Origin: a virus
Virus record (IMG/VR): IMGVR_UViG_3300024343_000106
Coordinates: 1-26,025 of that record
DNA length: 26,025 nt
Direction: 5' to 3' (one strand)
Shown here: piece after piece, positions 10,744 through 26,025 of the stretch
Position numbering within the stretch: position 1 is the stretch's first letter
Layout of the letters: each line of letters opens with the position of its first letter
Translations under genes and position numbers: made by a program
Notes under the pieces: model-generated
Seen by the model: the letters and a program-made list of their open reading frames with translations, nothing else
The model's database searches: none
What the model was told of the DNA's origin: nothing

Positions 10744-11493
10744 TTAGCCTAGCATATCAGTAACAGGTAATGAGTACGAACTAATCATTTCTGATTCGAT
10801 AGCTTGAATTTCATCTGTAGCTTCATCCCAGATTTTTTGTCCGTTGAATGTAATGCCACCCGGCATAGAAAGTCCTTCAAACTTTTTCAAGTTTTCACCC
10901 CATTGTTTTTTAATGAGTGCTGTGCAATATCTCTGAAGCCATCTGTCATTATAGATATCTGTATATGTGTCAGGATCAATTTTTTGATACGCTTCGACAA
11001 TAATGTATTCACCGAGAACAACTTTCTCACCCCAAGCAATGTCTACATAAAGTTTGTTTGAGTGGCGTTGAAAACGAATAGCTTGTTTACCAACGAATAA
11101 TTCTTCAGCTAAAGCAACGTTTTGAAGTGCCATGTAGTATGGTGCAAATGGTCCTGTATTGAATGCGAATAAGTCGTTAAGGGCAATCTGATATCTTAAA
11201 TTGAACAAGTTGTTTGTAGAATAACTATTACCAATCGGAAGAATATTGGTGACACCAATAACGGAATCATCAATGGAAAGATATTTATTGGTGATATCGG
11301 TTTGTGTGACTTGATGTGCTAGATACACTTTCTCTGTTGCATCGTAGTGATAATCGTAGTAGTATGAAAATGCCATTTCAATGCAATCTTCAGTTTGTTC
11401 GTCCGCTACGTTTATCTCTAATAGAGGCGCACCTAATCTTCTAAGGCAGAATTCCTTAAACTCATCTCTAGATGCTGGCTTGCTTGTACTCAT
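10744..11493 (-). CDS. gp13: Neck protein (gp13-like)
   Basis: This is the head-tail connector protein that sits on the portal after packaging. The 249 residues (T4 gp13 is 309) contain the family opening SRDEFKEFCLRRLGAPLLEI, DEQTEDCIEMAFSYYYDYHY, the IGVTNILPIGNS segment, and KLYVDIAWGEKVVLGEYIIV with WLQRYCTALIKKQWGENLKK. AAGGGG lies just before the ATG at 11493, and a TATAAATA late promoter is 30 bases upstream. The intrinsic terminator at 11546-11572 separates it from the oxygenase cassette, so gp13 starts a new late transcription unit. Confidence 0.95.
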   Translation of the reverse strand: MSTSKPASRDEFKEFCLRRLGAPLLEINVADEQTEDCIEMAFSYYYDYHYDATEKVYLAHQVTQTDITNKYLSIDDSVIGVTNILPIGNSYSTNNLFNLRYQIALNDLFAFNTGPFAPYYMALQNVALAEELFVGKQAIRFQRHSNKLYVDIAWGEKVVLGEYIIVEAYQKIDPDTYTDIYNDRWLQRYCTALIKKQWGENLKKFEGLSMPGGITFNGQKIWDEATDEIQAIESEMISSYSLPVTDMLG

Positions 11494-11545: not shown

Positions 11546-11572
11546 AAAAAAACCCCCAATAAAGGGGGTTTT
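11546..11572 (-). terminator. Intrinsic terminator after oxygenase cassette
   Basis: AAAACCCCC (11549-11557) pairs with GGGGGTTTT (11564-11572) around a 6-base loop. On the minus strand the stem is followed by more T residues, giving a run of seven. It closes the transcript carrying the cassette at 11592-14160. The symmetric A/T flanks allow weaker function on the plus strand. Confidence 0.85.
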
Positions 11573-11591
11573 GATTTTGTTTGATATCGAA

Positions 11592-12071
11592 TTATCGATT
11601 CATGCCTTCAATGAAAAGGTCATCAATCTGTAGTTCAGTAAGTCCAAGAACATTAGAAATTAAAGATGTAATTGGTGAATTATTTCTTTGAACATATTCA
11701 CCATATTGCCATTCGATTTGTGCGACACTTTTTGCATTTTCTTCCTGAATACTATTAATAGCAGATTCTAATGTCGTTAGAATTCCCGCACTTAAGAATG
11801 TTAATCTGGCTTGACGCATAGTAATTGAATTTGGAACAATTGATTTTCTGTATGATGCATTTGCAGTATCCAATTGACTCTGCGTAATGCCAGATGCAAG
11901 TGCTTCGGATTGAGTTAAAAATGCGTGAGTTGGATATCCAGCCCAAGACATATCTTTTCTATGTGCATCATCTAATACATCTATGCCGGAAATAGTTCCC
12001 CATGTGGGAGGTAATGGTCCTGATGATAATACTACTTTTGCGTCTTTATCTATGCAATAAAATGTTGTCAT
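11592..12071 (-). CDS. Tail-fibre-assembly-chaperone-like protein
   Basis: The 159-residue protein has an N-terminal segment (MTTFYCIDKDAKVVLSSGPL) and a helical C-terminal half containing ITMRQARLTFLSAGILTTLE, AKSVAQIEWQYGEYVQRNNS and LGLTELQIDDLF. The R-QARL ... AKI-WEY ... LGLT--QIDDLF pattern is familiar from small proteins encoded beside tail-fibre genes, often annotated as fibre assembly proteins. A chaperone or fibre-associated role is inferred. It is the last gene of a four-gene cassette, overlaps the upstream gene by ATGA (12068-12071), has GGAG before the start, and is followed by an intrinsic terminator. Confidence 0.8.
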   Translation of the reverse strand: MTTFYCIDKDAKVVLSSGPLPPTWGTISGIDVLDDAHRKDMSWAGYPTHAFLTQSEALASGITQSQLDTANASYRKSIVPNSITMRQARLTFLSAGILTTLESAINSIQEENAKSVAQIEWQYGEYVQRNNSPITSLISNVLGLTELQIDDLFIEGMNR

Positions 12072-12805
12072 TTTTGTGTCTCCAGTTTAAATTCTTTTTT
12101 CTGTTGAAATAGTCGTCTGTATGCAGAACGCCATTTGGTAGGGTATCCATATTTATGAAAATCTATATCGTGTTCCGTACCCTTCATTGATTTTCCTGTA
12201 ATAATTTCTCTTTTAAAAGGAATTATTTGCAATAGTGGAGTTCCAGCTGGAATATGAATATGACACTCATGGATTGCAGTAAAAAGCCAATTCATTTGAC
12301 AAAATTTATCGTGATCTATAATTCCTGGATACATATACAAGTCTTTTAAAAATGGACTATGATAATATGCCGGCATTACATATGCAGACCAACCTTTTTT
12401 TGTAAAAAGTCCCCAAGGGCATGGGACTTTATTTACTGCACCCGGAACACCATTTATGGGAACCAAACCATCAACCAATTTATAATTTAACCATGAAATT
12501 TGTCCGGACTCAAAATTAGCAAGTGTTTTAACGTGAGTTCCAGATCGATTTGATTTAATTTCAAAATCAGTCCAAGCAGGAATAATATAACCTGCTCGTA
12601 CAAAATCTGCCATTCCGGGACAATTTAAAAATTTTTCACTTGAAGGTCTGCCTTTTTGTGCTTTGACAAAATCTGGAATCACATCTTTTGCTAATTTAAT
12701 ATTAGTTATGTCACTAACGTATGGGTGTGTATTGAAAGATGCAAACCTAATTATCGGCTCTTCTGTGACCATTTCACTTATATAATTACGAATTTTATTA
12801 AACAT
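12068..12805 (-). CDS. DUF6065-like conserved phage protein, copy 2
   Basis: A 245-residue protein of unknown function, paralogous to the gene just upstream. Shared landmarks are a conserved cysteine region (LNCPGMADFVRAGYIIPAWT, compare CIPMIDAMSIGYTIPFFIDQ in copy 1), a PWG--TKKGWSAYVMPA segment, PGIIDHDKFCQMNW, and the C-terminal IPAGTPLLQIIPFKRE. This layout matches, from memory, a protein family of aquatic T4-like phages assigned to DUF6065 or close to it. No catalytic residues are known to me. It abuts copy 1 (TAAATG junction at 12808-12803) and overlaps the chaperone-like gene by ATGA. Its placement with an oxygenase suggests shared function, which is inference. Confidence 0.85.
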   Translation of the reverse strand: MFNKIRNYISEMVTEEPIIRFASFNTHPYVSDITNIKLAKDVIPDFVKAQKGRPSSEKFLNCPGMADFVRAGYIIPAWTDFEIKSNRSGTHVKTLANFESGQISWLNYKLVDGLVPINGVPGAVNKVPCPWGLFTKKGWSAYVMPAYYHSPFLKDLYMYPGIIDHDKFCQMNWLFTAIHECHIHIPAGTPLLQIIPFKREIITGKSMKGTEHDIDFHKYGYPTKWRSAYRRLFQQKKEFKLETQK

Positions 12806-13534
12806 TTATCTTTTTTCCCTTAATTCATTTTCATAAACATTGTCACGGGTAAGTTGACTTTTTGTTAGAATGTCAATATATTTTTGCTCATCGCTATTTA
12901 ACGATCTAACATTATGTTTAATGTCAAGCATACTGCGTTTAATTGGAATCGCAGTCATCATTGGGGTGCCAGCACGAACATATCCTTCATAGTATGGCAT
13001 AATCCATCTTCCAGGAAAATTAACTTGTCGAACATATTTATCAGTATCTACCAATCCACCCAATAATTGAAATCTATCTTCAAGAGTATTTAAGCAAGGT
13101 ATGAAAAGAGTTGACCATCCAGGAGAAGTTTTAACCACCCAAGGATTTACAAATTTTATTGGTTTAGATTTAAATGGTGCGTTGCCATCTTTATCAGAGA
13201 CTTGAGCCGAGTTATGAAACTCTATGCCGAGACCAAAATCAGCCATTGTTGGACCTGGATCAACATTGCAGTTTCTATCGACATGTACATACTGATCTAT
13301 AAAGAATGGTATTGTATACCCAATTGACATAGCGTCAATCATTGGAATACATTTTTTCGCAGTCATACCAGGACCACCTTTACCATCTCGTTCACCTTTT
13401 GCAAACGGAGGAATTTTTTTATACCATTCGGGAATGGTTTTTGCTGATGGTTTAGGTTCTGGTATTACTTTAAAATATCTTTCATCACATAAAAACTCTA
13501 TTACTGGAGTTTTAAATATTGAAATTAAACTCAT
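12806..13534 (-). CDS. DUF6065-like conserved phage protein, copy 1
   Basis: A 242-residue protein of unknown function. The N-terminal part has KPSAKTIPEWYKKIPPF, the IPEWYK-IP signature I associate with this phage family. It is followed by MTAKKCIPMIDAMSIGYTIP, FVNPWVVKTSPGWSTLFIPC, LLGGLVDTDKYVRQVNFPG and RAGTPMMTAIPIKRSM. Copy 2 keeps most of these blocks but shows no clear IPEWYK motif. The start overlaps the oxygenase stop by ATGA (13531-13534), with AGGGG upstream. The AGTP--IPIKR segment recalls the end of a cupin-like barrel, but I cannot support metal binding from visible residues. Function unknown. Confidence 0.87.
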   Translation of the reverse strand: MSLISIFKTPVIEFLCDERYFKVIPEPKPSAKTIPEWYKKIPPFAKGERDGKGGPGMTAKKCIPMIDAMSIGYTIPFFIDQYVHVDRNCNVDPGPTMADFGLGIEFHNSAQVSDKDGNAPFKSKPIKFVNPWVVKTSPGWSTLFIPCLNTLEDRFQLLGGLVDTDKYVRQVNFPGRWIMPYYEGYVRAGTPMMTAIPIKRSMLDIKHNVRSLNSDEQKYIDILTKSQLTRDNVYENELREKR

Positions 13535-14160
13535 TTAAATTTAGGGCCCCTAACCCAAGTTACTAGGCTAATTCTTTCTCCTGAAGTTACTGGATTTACT
13601 TTATGTGGAACCCAAGACGGAAAAACTAGTATAATTCCAGGTTTTAATTTAATAGTTTGTGCCGTTTCAGGATTTCCGCCTATATTAATGATAAATTCTC
13701 CACCCTCATATTCACTAGGATCACTTAATCCCACAACTATAGATAACTTTCTATGAAATGATAATGATGGTCCAGAATCTGTATGCCAATTATAAAATTG
13801 GTCGTCTTTATATTTTGCATATTGAAGAACATCAAGCGTATCTAAATCAAATTGATATTTGTCGTGATTGATTTTAGACACAATATGTTGAAGTCTTCGA
13901 TATAACCACTCCGATTGTTCTGATGGGTTAATCCAAGAAATATCAGTATCTCTAACATCAAGGTCTGTTGTTGGTGCTGAGTCGGATCCAACAACACCTT
14001 TTTGAAATTCTGCCATTTCACCCAAACTTATAATATCACGAACTTCTTCTTCAGTAAATCCGTCTGACCACACAATCAGTTCCTCTAAGGGCTGATATAT
14101 CTCTTGTATTGTCATTGCCGCAACGGCTCTAGGACCAAAGTTATGTAAAATATGACTCAT
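13531..14160 (-). CDS. 2OG-Fe(II) oxygenase, PKHD/prolyl hydroxylase type
   Basis: This is a 2-oxoglutarate- and Fe(II)-dependent dioxygenase of the prolyl-4-hydroxylase/PKHD group, which hydroxylates a substrate while oxidising 2OG to succinate. In 209 residues the iron ligands are visible as H126-x-D128 in FYNWHTDSG and H186 in FPSWVPHKVNPV, with the 2OG-binding R196 in SGERISLVTWVRG. SDPSEYEGGEF and LKPGIILVFPSWVPHKV are typical of the fold. The active site looks intact. AAGGAA precedes the ATG. It is first in a coupled cassette and lies directly downstream of a Pro/Gly/Asn-repeat virion-type protein. The substrate is unknown; a phage structural protein is a reasonable guess. Confidence 0.93.
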   Translation of the reverse strand: MSHILHNFGPRAVAAMTIQEIYQPLEELIVWSDGFTEEEVRDIISLGEMAEFQKGVVGSDSAPTTDLDVRDTDISWINPSEQSEWLYRRLQHIVSKINHDKYQFDLDTLDVLQYAKYKDDQFYNWHTDSGPSLSFHRKLSIVVGLSDPSEYEGGEFIINIGGNPETAQTIKLKPGIILVFPSWVPHKVNPVTSGERISLVTWVRGPKFK

Positions 14161-14201
14161 AATTAATTCCTTTTTTTAAATAATAAAACCCAAATGCAAT
14201 T

Positions 14202-14209
14202 TATTTATT
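14202..14209 (-). promoter_or_regulatory. Possible late-promoter variant (AATAAATA)
   Basis: A one-base variant of the late octamer, on the minus strand, 42 bases upstream of the oxygenase ATG, just after the upstream gene's stop. Six-base inverted arms AATGCA/TGCATT flank it. Weak evidence. Confidence 0.4.
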
Positions 14210-14900
14210 ATGCATTAATAAGCGACACGTATCCCCCTGGAGGAACAGAAATTGATATACCAACTGTGCTGTAGTCAACACTAACTGCCACTGGTCCAAC
14301 AACGGGAGCATTAGAAGCGCCAGCACCGCCTGGCAATGGGACACCCAATACAACATACGATGGTCCTGCATTTCCTGGAATAGTGTTTCCCGGAACAGTA
14401 TTTCCTGGTGTTGTTGGATTGTAGTTTGTGGGATTAGCGTATGTGAAACCAGGAACATAATATCCATAGGACTGTACTGAGCCTTGACTTCCTCCAGACC
14501 AATAGTTTACCATACTCCATGTGCCTTGTCCATCACTAGTATAATAATTAAAGTATGCCTCAGGAGTGCCTGCCCAAAAAGTGCCGTAAAACCCGCCTCG
14601 GCCAGGAAATGTGGATGCAGTCCAATCAGTAATTATTTGATATGTAATAACAAAACTAAAACCCTGTAACACAAAATAACCAGCCACAGGAACGGGATTT
14701 CCTGGTATTGGATTTCCTGGTACTGTAGGATTACTAGTGGTTGGATTTGTTGTTGTTGGATTACCAGCAGTAGACCGTCCTTGTAACGAAAAATTAGTTT
14801 TTCCGTATGGGGGATAATAAGTCCCTGGCGCATTAAACGTAACTGTCTCTTTGACAACTGCGTTTGTTCGTTCTCTTCTTAATAGTCCAGATATTTTCAT
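14208..14900 (-). CDS. Pro/Gly/Asn-repeat virion-type protein
   Basis: I do not recognise a named family. The 230-residue protein has two low-complexity blocks built from NPT and PGN units: NPTTTNPTTSNPTVPGNPIP near residues 47-66 and NPTTPGNTVPGNTIPGNAGP near 162-181. An aromatic, glycine-rich segment between them contains GRGGFYGTFWAGTPEAYFNY. The C-terminus VSVDYSTVGISISVPPGGYV looks like a short beta domain. There is no signal peptide or transmembrane segment. It sits between the 614-residue fibre and the oxygenase, so a fibre or tip role is inferred from context. The start lacks a clear Shine-Dalgarno, and the gene begins 15 bases after the fibre stop. Confidence 0.78.
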   Translation of the reverse strand: MKISGLLRRERTNAVVKETVTFNAPGTYYPPYGKTNFSLQGRSTAGNPTTTNPTTSNPTVPGNPIPGNPVPVAGYFVLQGFSFVITYQIITDWTASTFPGRGGFYGTFWAGTPEAYFNYYTSDGQGTWSMVNYWSGGSQGSVQSYGYYVPGFTYANPTNYNPTTPGNTVPGNTIPGNAGPSYVVLGVPLPGGAGASNAPVVGPVAVSVDYSTVGISISVPPGGYVSLINA

Positions 14901-14915
14901 AGTTTTATTATATCA

Positions 14916-16760
14916 TTAATAGTTGGTGATTGCAAGTGATCCTACGTATGTAGTACCACCATCTCTAGTAAAGAAAGTGTATGCGTCTTGTTTTGCTGAT
15001 GTTGTTGTTCTTGTTGGAGTCGCACCACCCGACCAAGTTACTGAACCTGGCCATGAAATTGCATATCCACCAGCAGAGTTAACTGTGATAATAGTAAATG
15101 ATGTAATATCAGTTCCCGATGGAGGATTGATAAAGGAGAATGTCGCTGTTCCATTCATTGTCACTACGAATGCGTTACCTAAAGACAAATCAATGTTAGT
15201 TGCGCCGCTTGCAGAAACTGCTGTAACAGAGTCACGTTGAATTTTTGCTTTGATGCTACCTGTCCAAAATCCAGACGAATCAACATAAGCAACAACTGTT
15301 CCCGCATGAGCGATTGTCAATGGAGTTACTGTAGTAGGACCAGATGCAGTCTTAATGTAAATACCATAAGATGTTGCACCATATGCTGAAGTATTTTCAA
15401 ATACACCAGCGGCTGTAGTATTTGTGTTTGTCGAACCGGTTGAAATTACTTTACTGTATATACCAATTGGCATACTCGTACCAGAAAGTAAATTTCCTGT
15501 GTATGATGGCAATGCGCCTGTTGCACTAGATGCACCGGTTGCTTCGGCGTAAACACCAATAGAACCAGCACCATTTGTATTTGCTGTTGCACGACCATAT
15601 AGTGCAAATGAATTCAATCCACCAGACGATGCGGCTACAGAGTATACGCCATATACAGAGTTTGAACTTGCAAACGATTGACCTGCATCAATGTATGCGC
15701 CATATGTTGGTGTTGAATCTCCGCCTGCACTATTAGGAGTCTGTATGTGTAGACCAGATGATGTATTTGCACTATCACTAGTCATTAAAATATGTAACTT
15801 TGATTTAACCGTATCAGCATTTGTGCCAATCACCATATTACCATTACTTGATAGTATGGCACGTTCACTATAAGATTCAGAACCAACTGTGCCAGTATAT
15901 GTACTCAATGCTAAACCGCCACCCGAAAGTGCAGAAACTCTACCACCGCCACTTGTTCCATAAGCCCATTGTGAACCACCGCCAGATGCATTTAAAACAA
16001 CAAATTTAACACCGGTTCCTCCTGGCGTTAACGTTGTTCCAATAGAGATATTATTATTTGCAACAATTGTATTTGCAGTTTCTGTTGTTATGTATGATGC
16101 GTTTCCAAAAAATGTGGCCGCTTGAAAATCCGAAAGTTGAAACGATGCATTAGCTGTATCAATCGGATGTGTTGGTTCTGGAGTATAACCTTTAAATACT
16201 TTCCAACGATCTTCAGAAGCATCTCTAAAAATACCAGTATGTTTGTATGTACCATCATTGTAGTTTGCGGCAAGCCCGATATCTGGATTTGTTACTGTAT
16301 TGTTTGCATTTAAATATATAATGCTATCTTCAATGTCAAATGATTGTGTATTTAATGTGACGGTGTTACCTTGAATAATAAGGTCGCCTGCAATATTCGC
16401 ACTACCACCAATATATATGTCAGAGCCAACCCAAAGTTTTTTGCCGATTGCGGCGCCACCATACGTGCGTAAACTTCCACTATTTGCTGTTTCCGAGTCT
16501 TCTACAGTAGTCAATATCATTCTTTGATATTGCATATTAGCAGAAGCTACGCTAGATATGGAAAGAACATTATTTGCAACGACTGTAGTAATTCCAGTAG
16601 CACCTTGAATTGCTAATGTTTCACCACCAACAGAAATTGAGTCCGAACCAGAATCACCGGTAATGCTTAATCCGGAATTAATAGTATTGCTAATATCGTT
16701 AACGGTTGATCTAAACTCGTTAAACGTATTTCCTAATTGTACTTGATTTATTAATGGCAT
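14916..16760 (-). CDS. Tail fibre-like virion protein (614 aa)
   Basis: The N-terminus INQVQLGNTFNEFRSTVNDI with SITGDSGSDSISVGGETLAI is typical of fibre-type proteins in aquatic T4-like phages. A GGSANIAGDLIIQGNTVTLN segment and IYLNANNTVTNPDIGLAANY follow, as in many phage appendage proteins. The middle is a long Gly/Ser/Ala/Thr-rich beta-repeat region. The C-terminus (AFVVTMNGTATFSFINPPSG, ISWPGSVTWSGGATPTRT, then FTRDGGTTYVGSLA) is a common fibre end module. No S74-type autoprotease end is visible. It lies where T4 has short-fibre gene 12 and wac, so host contact is inferred, not shown. Confidence 0.85.
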   Translation of the reverse strand: MPLINQVQLGNTFNEFRSTVNDISNTINSGLSITGDSGSDSISVGGETLAIQGATGITTVVANNVLSISSVASANMQYQRMILTTVEDSETANSGSLRTYGGAAIGKKLWVGSDIYIGGSANIAGDLIIQGNTVTLNTQSFDIEDSIIYLNANNTVTNPDIGLAANYNDGTYKHTGIFRDASEDRWKVFKGYTPEPTHPIDTANASFQLSDFQAATFFGNASYITTETANTIVANNNISIGTTLTPGGTGVKFVVLNASGGGSQWAYGTSGGGRVSALSGGGLALSTYTGTVGSESYSERAILSSNGNMVIGTNADTVKSKLHILMTSDSANTSSGLHIQTPNSAGGDSTPTYGAYIDAGQSFASSNSVYGVYSVAASSGGLNSFALYGRATANTNGAGSIGVYAEATGASSATGALPSYTGNLLSGTSMPIGIYSKVISTGSTNTNTTAAGVFENTSAYGATSYGIYIKTASGPTTVTPLTIAHAGTVVAYVDSSGFWTGSIKAKIQRDSVTAVSASGATNIDLSLGNAFVVTMNGTATFSFINPPSGTDITSFTIITVNSAGGYAISWPGSVTWSGGATPTRTTTSAKQDAYTFFTRDGGTTYVGSLAITNY

Positions 16761-24950: not shown

Positions 24951-26025
24951 TTAGATAGCAGATATATCTTTAATGCTAATTACGCCTATCATGCTTCCGT
25001 GATTAGAACAAAGATAGCCATAACTACCATTTATGTTTGCTGGAACTTTCCAATACAATGTACCTGAAGTTTTACCTTGAGCCGCCGATCCCGTTGTGAC
25101 TACTCCTGCACTAGTTACGTGTGTTAATCCCGTGTCATAGTTTGCGCCAGAATATCTAATCAAAAATGGATGACTACTCAAAGCACCAGTGCCCAGATCA
25201 AATGCTATAGTAGTGCCGCTGATAGCATATATAGTCGGGTTGGGTCCTGAGTATTGATCGAACAAATATGCCGATGAACCACTTGCAGTAACTGCTAATC
25301 TTGTAATAGCAGGCAGATAAAATTTATCTACTGTAAGACTAGCATTATCGGTGAGGGCGGCAAATGTTGTAGCACCATTGGCTCCTGCTGGCCCTGTTGC
25401 ACCTGTAGCGCCAGTAGGACCAGTATTTCCTGTGGCTCCTTGTATTCCTTGTATTCCTTGTATTCCTTGTGATCCAGTTGCACCTGTAGCGCCAGTAGGA
25501 CCAGTATTTCCTGTTGCACCCGTAGCGCCAGTGGCTCCTGTATTTCCTGTCGGTCCTGCTGGTCCAGAAGTTATATCAGTATATTTGGCAAGTTGAACCC
25601 ATGCACTTGAATCTGCAAAATACATATAACCAGTAGTATTACTGTAAGCAATTGCACCCTGATAAGTTGCGGCACTCGGAAATACGGATGTATTTGCCCA
25701 ATTAAATGAAATAATACTACTTGCAAGTGGCGCTGTAATTGCACCATTATCAGTAATTGTCACTAAACTTTTTTGTATAGTAGTGCCAGAAGTTCCGTCG
25801 TATCTTACAATAGAATTATCAACGTATGCACCACCAGCACTAACTACGTCACCACTTCCAGCACCAGCAGGACCAGTATTTCCTGTGGGTCCTTGTGCCC
25901 CAGTATTTCCTGTGGGTCCTTGTATTCCTTGTATCCCTTGTATTCCTTGTATCCCTTGTGGCCCAGTATTTCCTGTTGGTCCCGTGGCGCCAGTTGGTCC
26001 TGTATTGCCTTGACCGCCACTATAA
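24951..26025 (-). CDS. Collagen-like fibre with cupredoxin-like end, 5' partial
   Basis: The frame stays open to the right edge, so the N-terminus is missing; the GTG at 25763 is internal. Visible order: 17 Gly-X-Y triplets, a linker with [13 protein letters not shown], a [20 protein letters not shown] module, 22 more triplets, then a C-terminal beta domain of about 110 residues. The triplets are mainly GAT, GNT, GPT and GIQ, so Thr dominates the Y position. The C-terminal segment [17 protein letters not shown] ... [11 protein letters not shown] ... [17 protein letters not shown] carries the C-x2-H-x2-M spacing of type 1 copper (cupredoxin) sites, as in many aquatic phage fibres. An adhesin role is likely; copper binding is unproven. 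The single protein chain continues upstream of the window. Confidence 0.88.
25396..25514 (-). repeat. 38-bp exact direct repeat in collagen coding
   Basis: A 38-base sequence occurs identically at 25396-25433 and 25477-25514, an 81-base (27-codon) offset, flanking the GIQ block. Because the offset is a multiple of three, recombination between copies would shorten the collagen rod in frame. Confidence 0.85.
25438..25470 (-). repeat. 9-bp tandem repeat (Gly-Ile-Gln codons)
   Basis: Three full copies of CCTTGTATT plus a partial fourth encode consecutive GIQ triplets on the minus strand. Slippage would change copy number without breaking the frame. Confidence 0.85.
25918..25958 (-). repeat. Second 9-bp tandem repeat (GIQ codons)
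   Basis: Four units alternate CCTTGTATT and CCTTGTATC, encoding GIQ triplets in the first collagen block of the same fibre gene. It is closely related to the array at 25438-25470. Confidence 0.8.

Follow-up and report, generated by a model that had tools for sequence, protein, structure and literature searches.

What does a 2-oxoglutarate (2OG) oxygenase do beside two DUF6065-like proteins in the tail-fibre region of a virus? The question is raised by a four-gene cassette in IMG/VR record IMGVR_UViG_3300024343_000106, of which positions 1–26,025 (26,025 nt, hereafter the window) were analysed, the cassette pieces lying at 11,546–14,209. Functional coupling of the oxygenase, the DUF6065 pair and the fibre tip is well supported, and the cassette would serve the tail-fibre tip as an accessory unit expressed late. 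It comprises, all on the minus strand and in gene order, a 2OG-Fe(II) oxygenase of PKHD/prolyl-4-hydroxylase type (13531..14160; 209 aa), the DUF6065-like DUFa (12806..13534; 242 aa), its paralogue DUFb (12068..12805; 245 aa) and a tail-fibre-assembly-chaperone-like protein (11592..12071; 159 aa), joined through ATGA, TAAATG and ATGA junctions. A bidirectional terminator-like hairpin with a T run (11549..11572; either strand) closes the cassette, which stands between the gene of the probable fibre-tip adhesin FIB2 (14208..14900, minus strand; 230 aa) and a gp13-like neck gene. Gene content, coupling, terminator and placement are therefore as stated in a preliminary description of this DNA.

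The coupling is seen most directly in comparison with two close relatives, contigs L235 and L236. The window shares 97.3–97.6% nucleotide identity with both through the fibre gene down to ~14,800, and below ~11,900 it is 93.6% identical to L235 and 99.8% to L236; between ~11,900 and ~14,800 the identity is only 67%. This divergent block (11900..14800) contains FIB2 past its conserved N-terminus, the oxygenase, DUFa, DUFb and the N-terminal part of the chaperone-like gene. Since it is divergent amid near-identical flanks, its parts travel with the adhesin rather than with the backbone of the phage, and this swap is the strongest evidence in the analysis for functional coupling. The neighbourhood is conserved in related phages: the order FIB2-oxygenase-DUFa-DUFb-chaperone-gp13 is kept in L233–L237 and L006, down to 55–69% identity and as far as the contigs reach. 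Automatic gene calling lists no chaperone for L005/L233, and a matching frame is present in L005. In related contigs, pN/pS (the ratio of non-synonymous to synonymous polymorphism) was 0.17–0.48 for the oxygenase, DUF6065 and chaperone genes, which are thus under purifying selection.

A second line of evidence comes from uncultured viruses, for which loci were selected in three ways. In the two motif scans (FFPP repeat DNA; fibre C-terminal motif; at least 120 matches each) loci were counted among the matches listed, so that their totals are minimum values; Fisher tests were performed on deduplicated loci, uncorrected for shared ancestry and with a small upstream sample (17–22 loci). Relatives of DUF6065 in IMG/VR were found in same-strand arrays after fibre genes, and many uncultured viruses from water have larger versions of the cassette, next to fibre-tip proteins with short repeats. 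Selection for PF19541-type DUF6065 (42 deduplicated loci, 43 genes) gave an oxygenase within two genes in 43/43 cases and the second DUF6065 type within two genes in 37/43, with the near-fixed array core repeat protein-O1-O2-b-a-O3; DUF6065 and 2OG oxygenases thus co-occur far beyond chance. Selection for FFPP repeat DNA alone yielded at least 108 deduplicated loci, and among the matches listed an oxygenase was located up to six genes downstream in 45 of 54 and upstream in 3 of 22, the corresponding values for DUF6065 being 36 of 54 and 1 of 22. The fibre C-terminal motif alone led to at least 55 viral loci. Among the matches listed, the next gene encoded a short-period repeat tail in 48/55 (background 7/349, p = 6e-47), a 2OG oxygenase followed downstream in 44/55 (upstream 0/17, p = 2e-9) and DUF6065 in 39/55 (upstream 0/17, p = 9e-8), and FFPP and oxygenase were associated (28/30 vs. 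16/25, p = 0.015). Fibre loci with neither an FFPP gene nor a PF13640 oxygenase still contained DUF6065 in 5/9 of the matches listed, and for this reason DUF6065 is regarded as linked to the repeat adhesin as much as to the oxygenase. The repeat units are diverse (FFPP, HFPP, FFAPPG, PPIIAVT, FGFTP, NPPVYS, TPAPPDF, GGFGHY); as they differ so widely, the conserved element is a repeat-tail protein beside the enzymes, not one sequence. In the repeats of 29 such genes, variation amounted to 0.45 at third codon positions vs. 0.27 at first and second positions, consistent with selection on the repeat protein. Together, co-occurrence and joint allelic exchange with the gene of the fibre tip support the earlier suggestion that the paralogues work with the oxygenase, and tie them to the fibre as well.

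Concerning the reaction catalysed, the oxygenase matches PF13640 with 59.3 bits (cut-off 27; E 7.5e-16) and contains the HxD...H iron triad and the basic 2OG residue; the active-site residues named beforehand (H126, D128, H186, R196) are present and invariant in nine homologues. PKHD-type hydroxylases (PiuC, Sbal_3634) and prolyl 4-hydroxylases, which belong to the same fold family and have the same HxD...H...R site, are its closest solved structures by profile matches to the PDB; the window enzyme differs from them in sitting in a phage fibre operon with DUF6065 partners. The array oxygenase subfamily profile likewise matches prolyl 4-hydroxylase, procollagen lysyl hydroxylase and PKHD enzymes. 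In the oxygenase profile searches of solved structures, neither AlkB nor TET was retrieved at E < 0.1, and some array oxygenases have weak Tet_JBP matches in Pfam (E ~0.001). Because the profile matches are protein hydroxylases, a protein target is favoured, and protein hydroxylation is the likely chemistry.

DUFa falls just under the Pfam cut-off for PF19541 (26.1 vs. 26.6 bits, E 7e-6) and DUFb has no PF19541 match, while both belong to the family by the phrog_7084 profile (E 7e-43 for DUFa; 5e-25, unrounded 4.5e-25, for DUFb). In the family alignment the two are ~21% identical, and profile comparison gives a probability of 100% that the DUFA and DUFB types are homologous; compared with the DUF6065 family at large, the window is distinguished by two diverged tandem copies with an oxygenase. 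The structure-prediction check was run on DUFa and returned a dUTPase (beta-clip) fold: in comparisons of the AlphaFold2 (AF2) model (predicted local distance difference test, pLDDT, 82; predicted template modelling score, pTM, 0.79) with the PDB, all 50 rows listed per comparison were dUTPases (best Foldseek E 9e-4; VIA-align Z 10.7), and in BFVD uncharacterised phage proteins came first, followed mostly by dUTPases. By sequence, the DUF6065-dUTPase profile match is weak and in register with motifs III/IV (probability 46%, E 2e-4; unrelated families ≤0.1%), a Pfam dUTPase match was obtained for 1/29 DUF6065 members (E 0.03), and a PDB sequence search with the DUF6065 profile found nothing. 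Pattern counts for dUTPase motifs I, II, III and V were 1/45, 1/45, 1/45 and 0/45 in the DUFA type and 2/52, 2/52, 0/52 and 0/52 in the DUFB type, compared with 6/7, 7/7, 7/7 and 4/7 in seven reference sequences, and DUF6065 has few or no strict forms of motifs III and IV. Five array-bearing contigs carry a separate true dUTPase. DUF6065 thus has its predicted fold in common with trimeric dUTPases and dUTPase-related proteins, but with motifs I, II and V gone and a true dUTPase encoded separately it does not merit classification as a dUTPase. A nucleotide-related ancestry is plausible, since the single copies of haloviruses and cyanophages neighbour genes for thymidylate synthase or ribonucleotide reductase, or auxiliary metabolic genes.

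Cellular DUF6065 was searched for with conserved peptides, and one contig of a metagenome-assembled genome was found, itself viral-looking and with a phage array: L239 (JAFMJX010000128.1), filed under a Chitinophagaceae genome and probably viral, has a fibre-FFPP-oxygenase-DUF6065 array. In a phylum sample, DUF6065 was present in 2/395 genomes, once between nuo-like genes (named by eye) and with no oxygenase. In L012:3517-6389 and L013:5277-7417, three DUF6065-type genes are clustered after structural-looking genes, with no PF13640 oxygenase.

The fourth gene has a variable N-terminus and a conserved C-terminal module, which also occurs in genes directly 3' of tail-fibre genes in Curvibacter phage P26059A and Sinorhizobium phage phiM9 and in a tail-region gene of Acidovorax phage Acica. 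A variable N-terminal and a conserved C-terminal domain have been described for a tail fibre assembly (TFA) chaperone (PMC9608196), and the window protein resembles chaperones of the Mu/Pam3 type in this layout and in its position after fibre genes; no sequence match to solved TFA structures was found in the PDB. It is a probable fibre chaperone, and as its module is common to post-fibre genes, the oxygenase and DUF6065 genes would have been inserted between the adhesin and this chaperone. The motif ATAAATA, late-promoter-like (AATAAATA in context; 14202..14208, minus strand), overlaps the FIB2 stop codon and lies 42 bp 5' of the oxygenase start. There are 15 copies in the window, all on the coding strand, of which 8 overlap intergenic gaps 13–65 bp upstream of a gene start. 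This placement suggests late expression of the cassette, as in T4-like phages; the total is not above chance (15 copies were reached in 11/100 shuffles), and the motif is therefore taken as supporting evidence only.

In the ortholog alignment the ends of FIB2 are conserved, while its centre is hypervariable, rich in aromatic residues and bordered by NPTT/NPTV and PGN repeats; L234 has four tandem copies of FIB2. No match was obtained in Pfam, PHROG, PDB and tblastn comparisons. Tblastn with FIB2, the fn3-FFPP protein and PF19541-type DUF6065 found no isolate phage, BLAST masking simple repeats. The gp38 adhesins have hypervariable regions flanked by Gly-rich motifs (PMC12892980), and FIB2 is like T-even gp38 in following a fibre gene and in having its hypervariable region between simple motifs; its repeats, however, are of Pro/Asn/Gly and not Gly-rich, and there is no sequence match to gp38 structures.

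Taken together, the oxygenase most likely hydroxylates the adjacent repeat-bearing adhesin FIB2 during virion assembly, the modified residues would be Pro or Asn in the NPT/PGN repeats, the two DUF6065 proteins probably assist the oxygenase by holding or folding the repeat protein, and a fibre-folding chaperone would be supplied by the fourth gene. FIB2 as the substrate, the residue modified and the partner or adaptor role of DUF6065 are what we infer from the linkage, and the whole reading (late-expressed FIB2 hydroxylation, DUF6065 as non-nucleotide partners, a chaperone as fourth gene) is given a probability of roughly 50%. Several observations weigh against it. In haloviruses, two types of cyanophage and one bacterial genome, no oxygenase lies next to DUF6065. 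The AF2 model of FIB2 is unusable (pLDDT 29), also for comparison with the polyglycine II (PGII) sandwich fold of gp38-like adhesins. The FIB2 repeats are degenerate (best 24-residue self-match 54%) and far weaker than those of the FFPP proteins, to which FIB2 is not related in sequence. The co-swap does not distinguish modification of the adhesin from modification of a component of the corresponding host, and would also fit a host-matched enzyme. Finally, two collagen-like proteins of the window, both on the minus strand (748-2244 with 55 Gly-X-Y triplets; 24951-26025 with at least 22), offer alternative hydroxylase substrates.

The preliminary description had proposed a fibre or a host component as the target. 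A protein target is now favoured and the likely substrate is narrowed to the adjacent fibre-tip protein, the host half of the proposal being retained as an unlikely alternative. According to it, the adhesin picks the host, and the enzyme and DUF6065 have a protein or surface polymer of that host as their target; their exchange together with host range would follow. The co-swap with the adhesin fits such host matching equally well, and a glycosyltransferase or an oxygenase-sulfotransferase fusion is sometimes found in array loci; yet this reading is opposed by the late-promoter-like motif, by the location of the cassette genes between the adhesin and the fibre chaperone, and by a linkage to repeat-tail proteins that holds irrespective of the repeat unit.

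We consider it similarly unlikely that DUF6065 has a structural role. The matched dUTPases are trimeric, as are fibres, and dUTPase-like DUF6065 trimers could cap or scaffold the fibre while the oxygenase modifies it separately. This would account for the presence of DUF6065 behind repeat adhesins that have no PF13640 oxygenase nearby. Against it stand the near-fixed position of DUF6065 between the specific oxygenases O1/O2 and O3 and the single copies in cyanophages, which are distant from fibre genes.

Hydroxylation of phage collagen-like proteins, as by collagen hydroxylases, is improbable: the oxygenase profiles match prolyl and procollagen-lysyl hydroxylases and Gly-X-Y repeats exist in the window, but its long Gly-X-Y run has only 1 Pro at position Y, collagen-like genes occur in just 23/163 oxygenase-bearing loci, and those of the window lie ~10 kb away, outside the swap block. 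Least probable is DNA or nucleotide modification, with the oxygenase hydroxylating bases and dUTPase-fold proteins acting on nucleotides, which draws on the predicted fold, the proximity of DUF6065 to thymidylate synthase or ribonucleotide reductase in haloviruses and S-RIM4, the weak Tet_JBP matches and an extra oxygenase-DUF6065 copy in the replication region of L200/L215, but is opposed by profile matches that include no DNA-oxygenase structure, by the missing dUTPase motifs and by the separate true dUTPase. The L200/L215 pair was discarded as support, three genomes of this type (L202, L207, L208) also holding the canonical fibre array.

Clusters of several 2OG oxygenases near fibre or neck genes, as observed here, are also found in cyanophages and pelagiphages: HTVC008M has four oxygenases beside Ad2, and Syn1 shows the order fibre-oxygenase-chaperone-oxygenase. 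The stretches of both that were examined hold no DUF6065 pair and no short-period Pro/aromatic repeat protein. S-SCSM1 carries 24 2OG oxygenases (PMC9602691), and such phage enzymes have been discussed as metabolic genes without tested function (PMC9602691, PMC9599517). A literature search, conducted largely without subscription papers, retrieved none on DUF6065, PPFFPPFF/FFPP repeats, phage fibre prolyl hydroxylation or the module. For the many 2OG oxygenases of marine and freshwater phages, the linkage offers a specific candidate substrate in the fibre tip with its repeats; DUF6065, which has no assigned function, gains a predicted fold and a candidate partner role. If hydroxylation of FIB2 is correct, phage receptor-binding proteins would be chemically modified proteins. 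This would matter for predicting host range and for producing phage adhesins recombinantly, and as a source of new hydroxylases for protein materials. A tentative extension, at less than even odds, is a widespread phage system of hydroxylated fibre tips, in which repeat adhesins (FFPP, FFAPPG, PPIIAVT, FGFTP, NPPVYS and others), arrays of up to about ten 2OG hydroxylases and a guiding DUF6065 pair would yield collagen- or extensin-like receptor-binding proteins.

At the borders of the cassette, FIB1 (14916..16760, minus strand; 614 aa) is a fibre protein with PHROG tail fibre/virion structural matches (E 1e-11 to 4e-10), and the gp13-like head-tail adaptor Ad2 (10744..11493, minus strand; phrog_211, E 2.5e-41) starts the neck operon outside the cassette. 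Among the arrays, an intein/Hint-like C-terminal domain comes after the repeat-tail proteins in L340:9869-11074, L342:11837-13129 and L189:3707-5002; the Pfam matches are weak (E 2e-4 to 0.02) and suggest self-processing of the fibre-tip protein. A GlcNAc (N-acetylglucosamine)-type glycosyltransferase and an oxygenase-sulfotransferase fusion are encoded within arrays (L014:2092-3096 and L010:5008-6423), further modification of hydroxylated residues being possible, and redoxin- or glutathione-peroxidase-like genes, assigned by eye, lie among the array oxygenases of L092 (6713-7369 and 10838-11452). A second short divergent patch (~0.60–0.86 identity) was observed at window positions 16500-16690, in the N-terminal part of FIB1, relative to the otherwise near-identical L235/L236.

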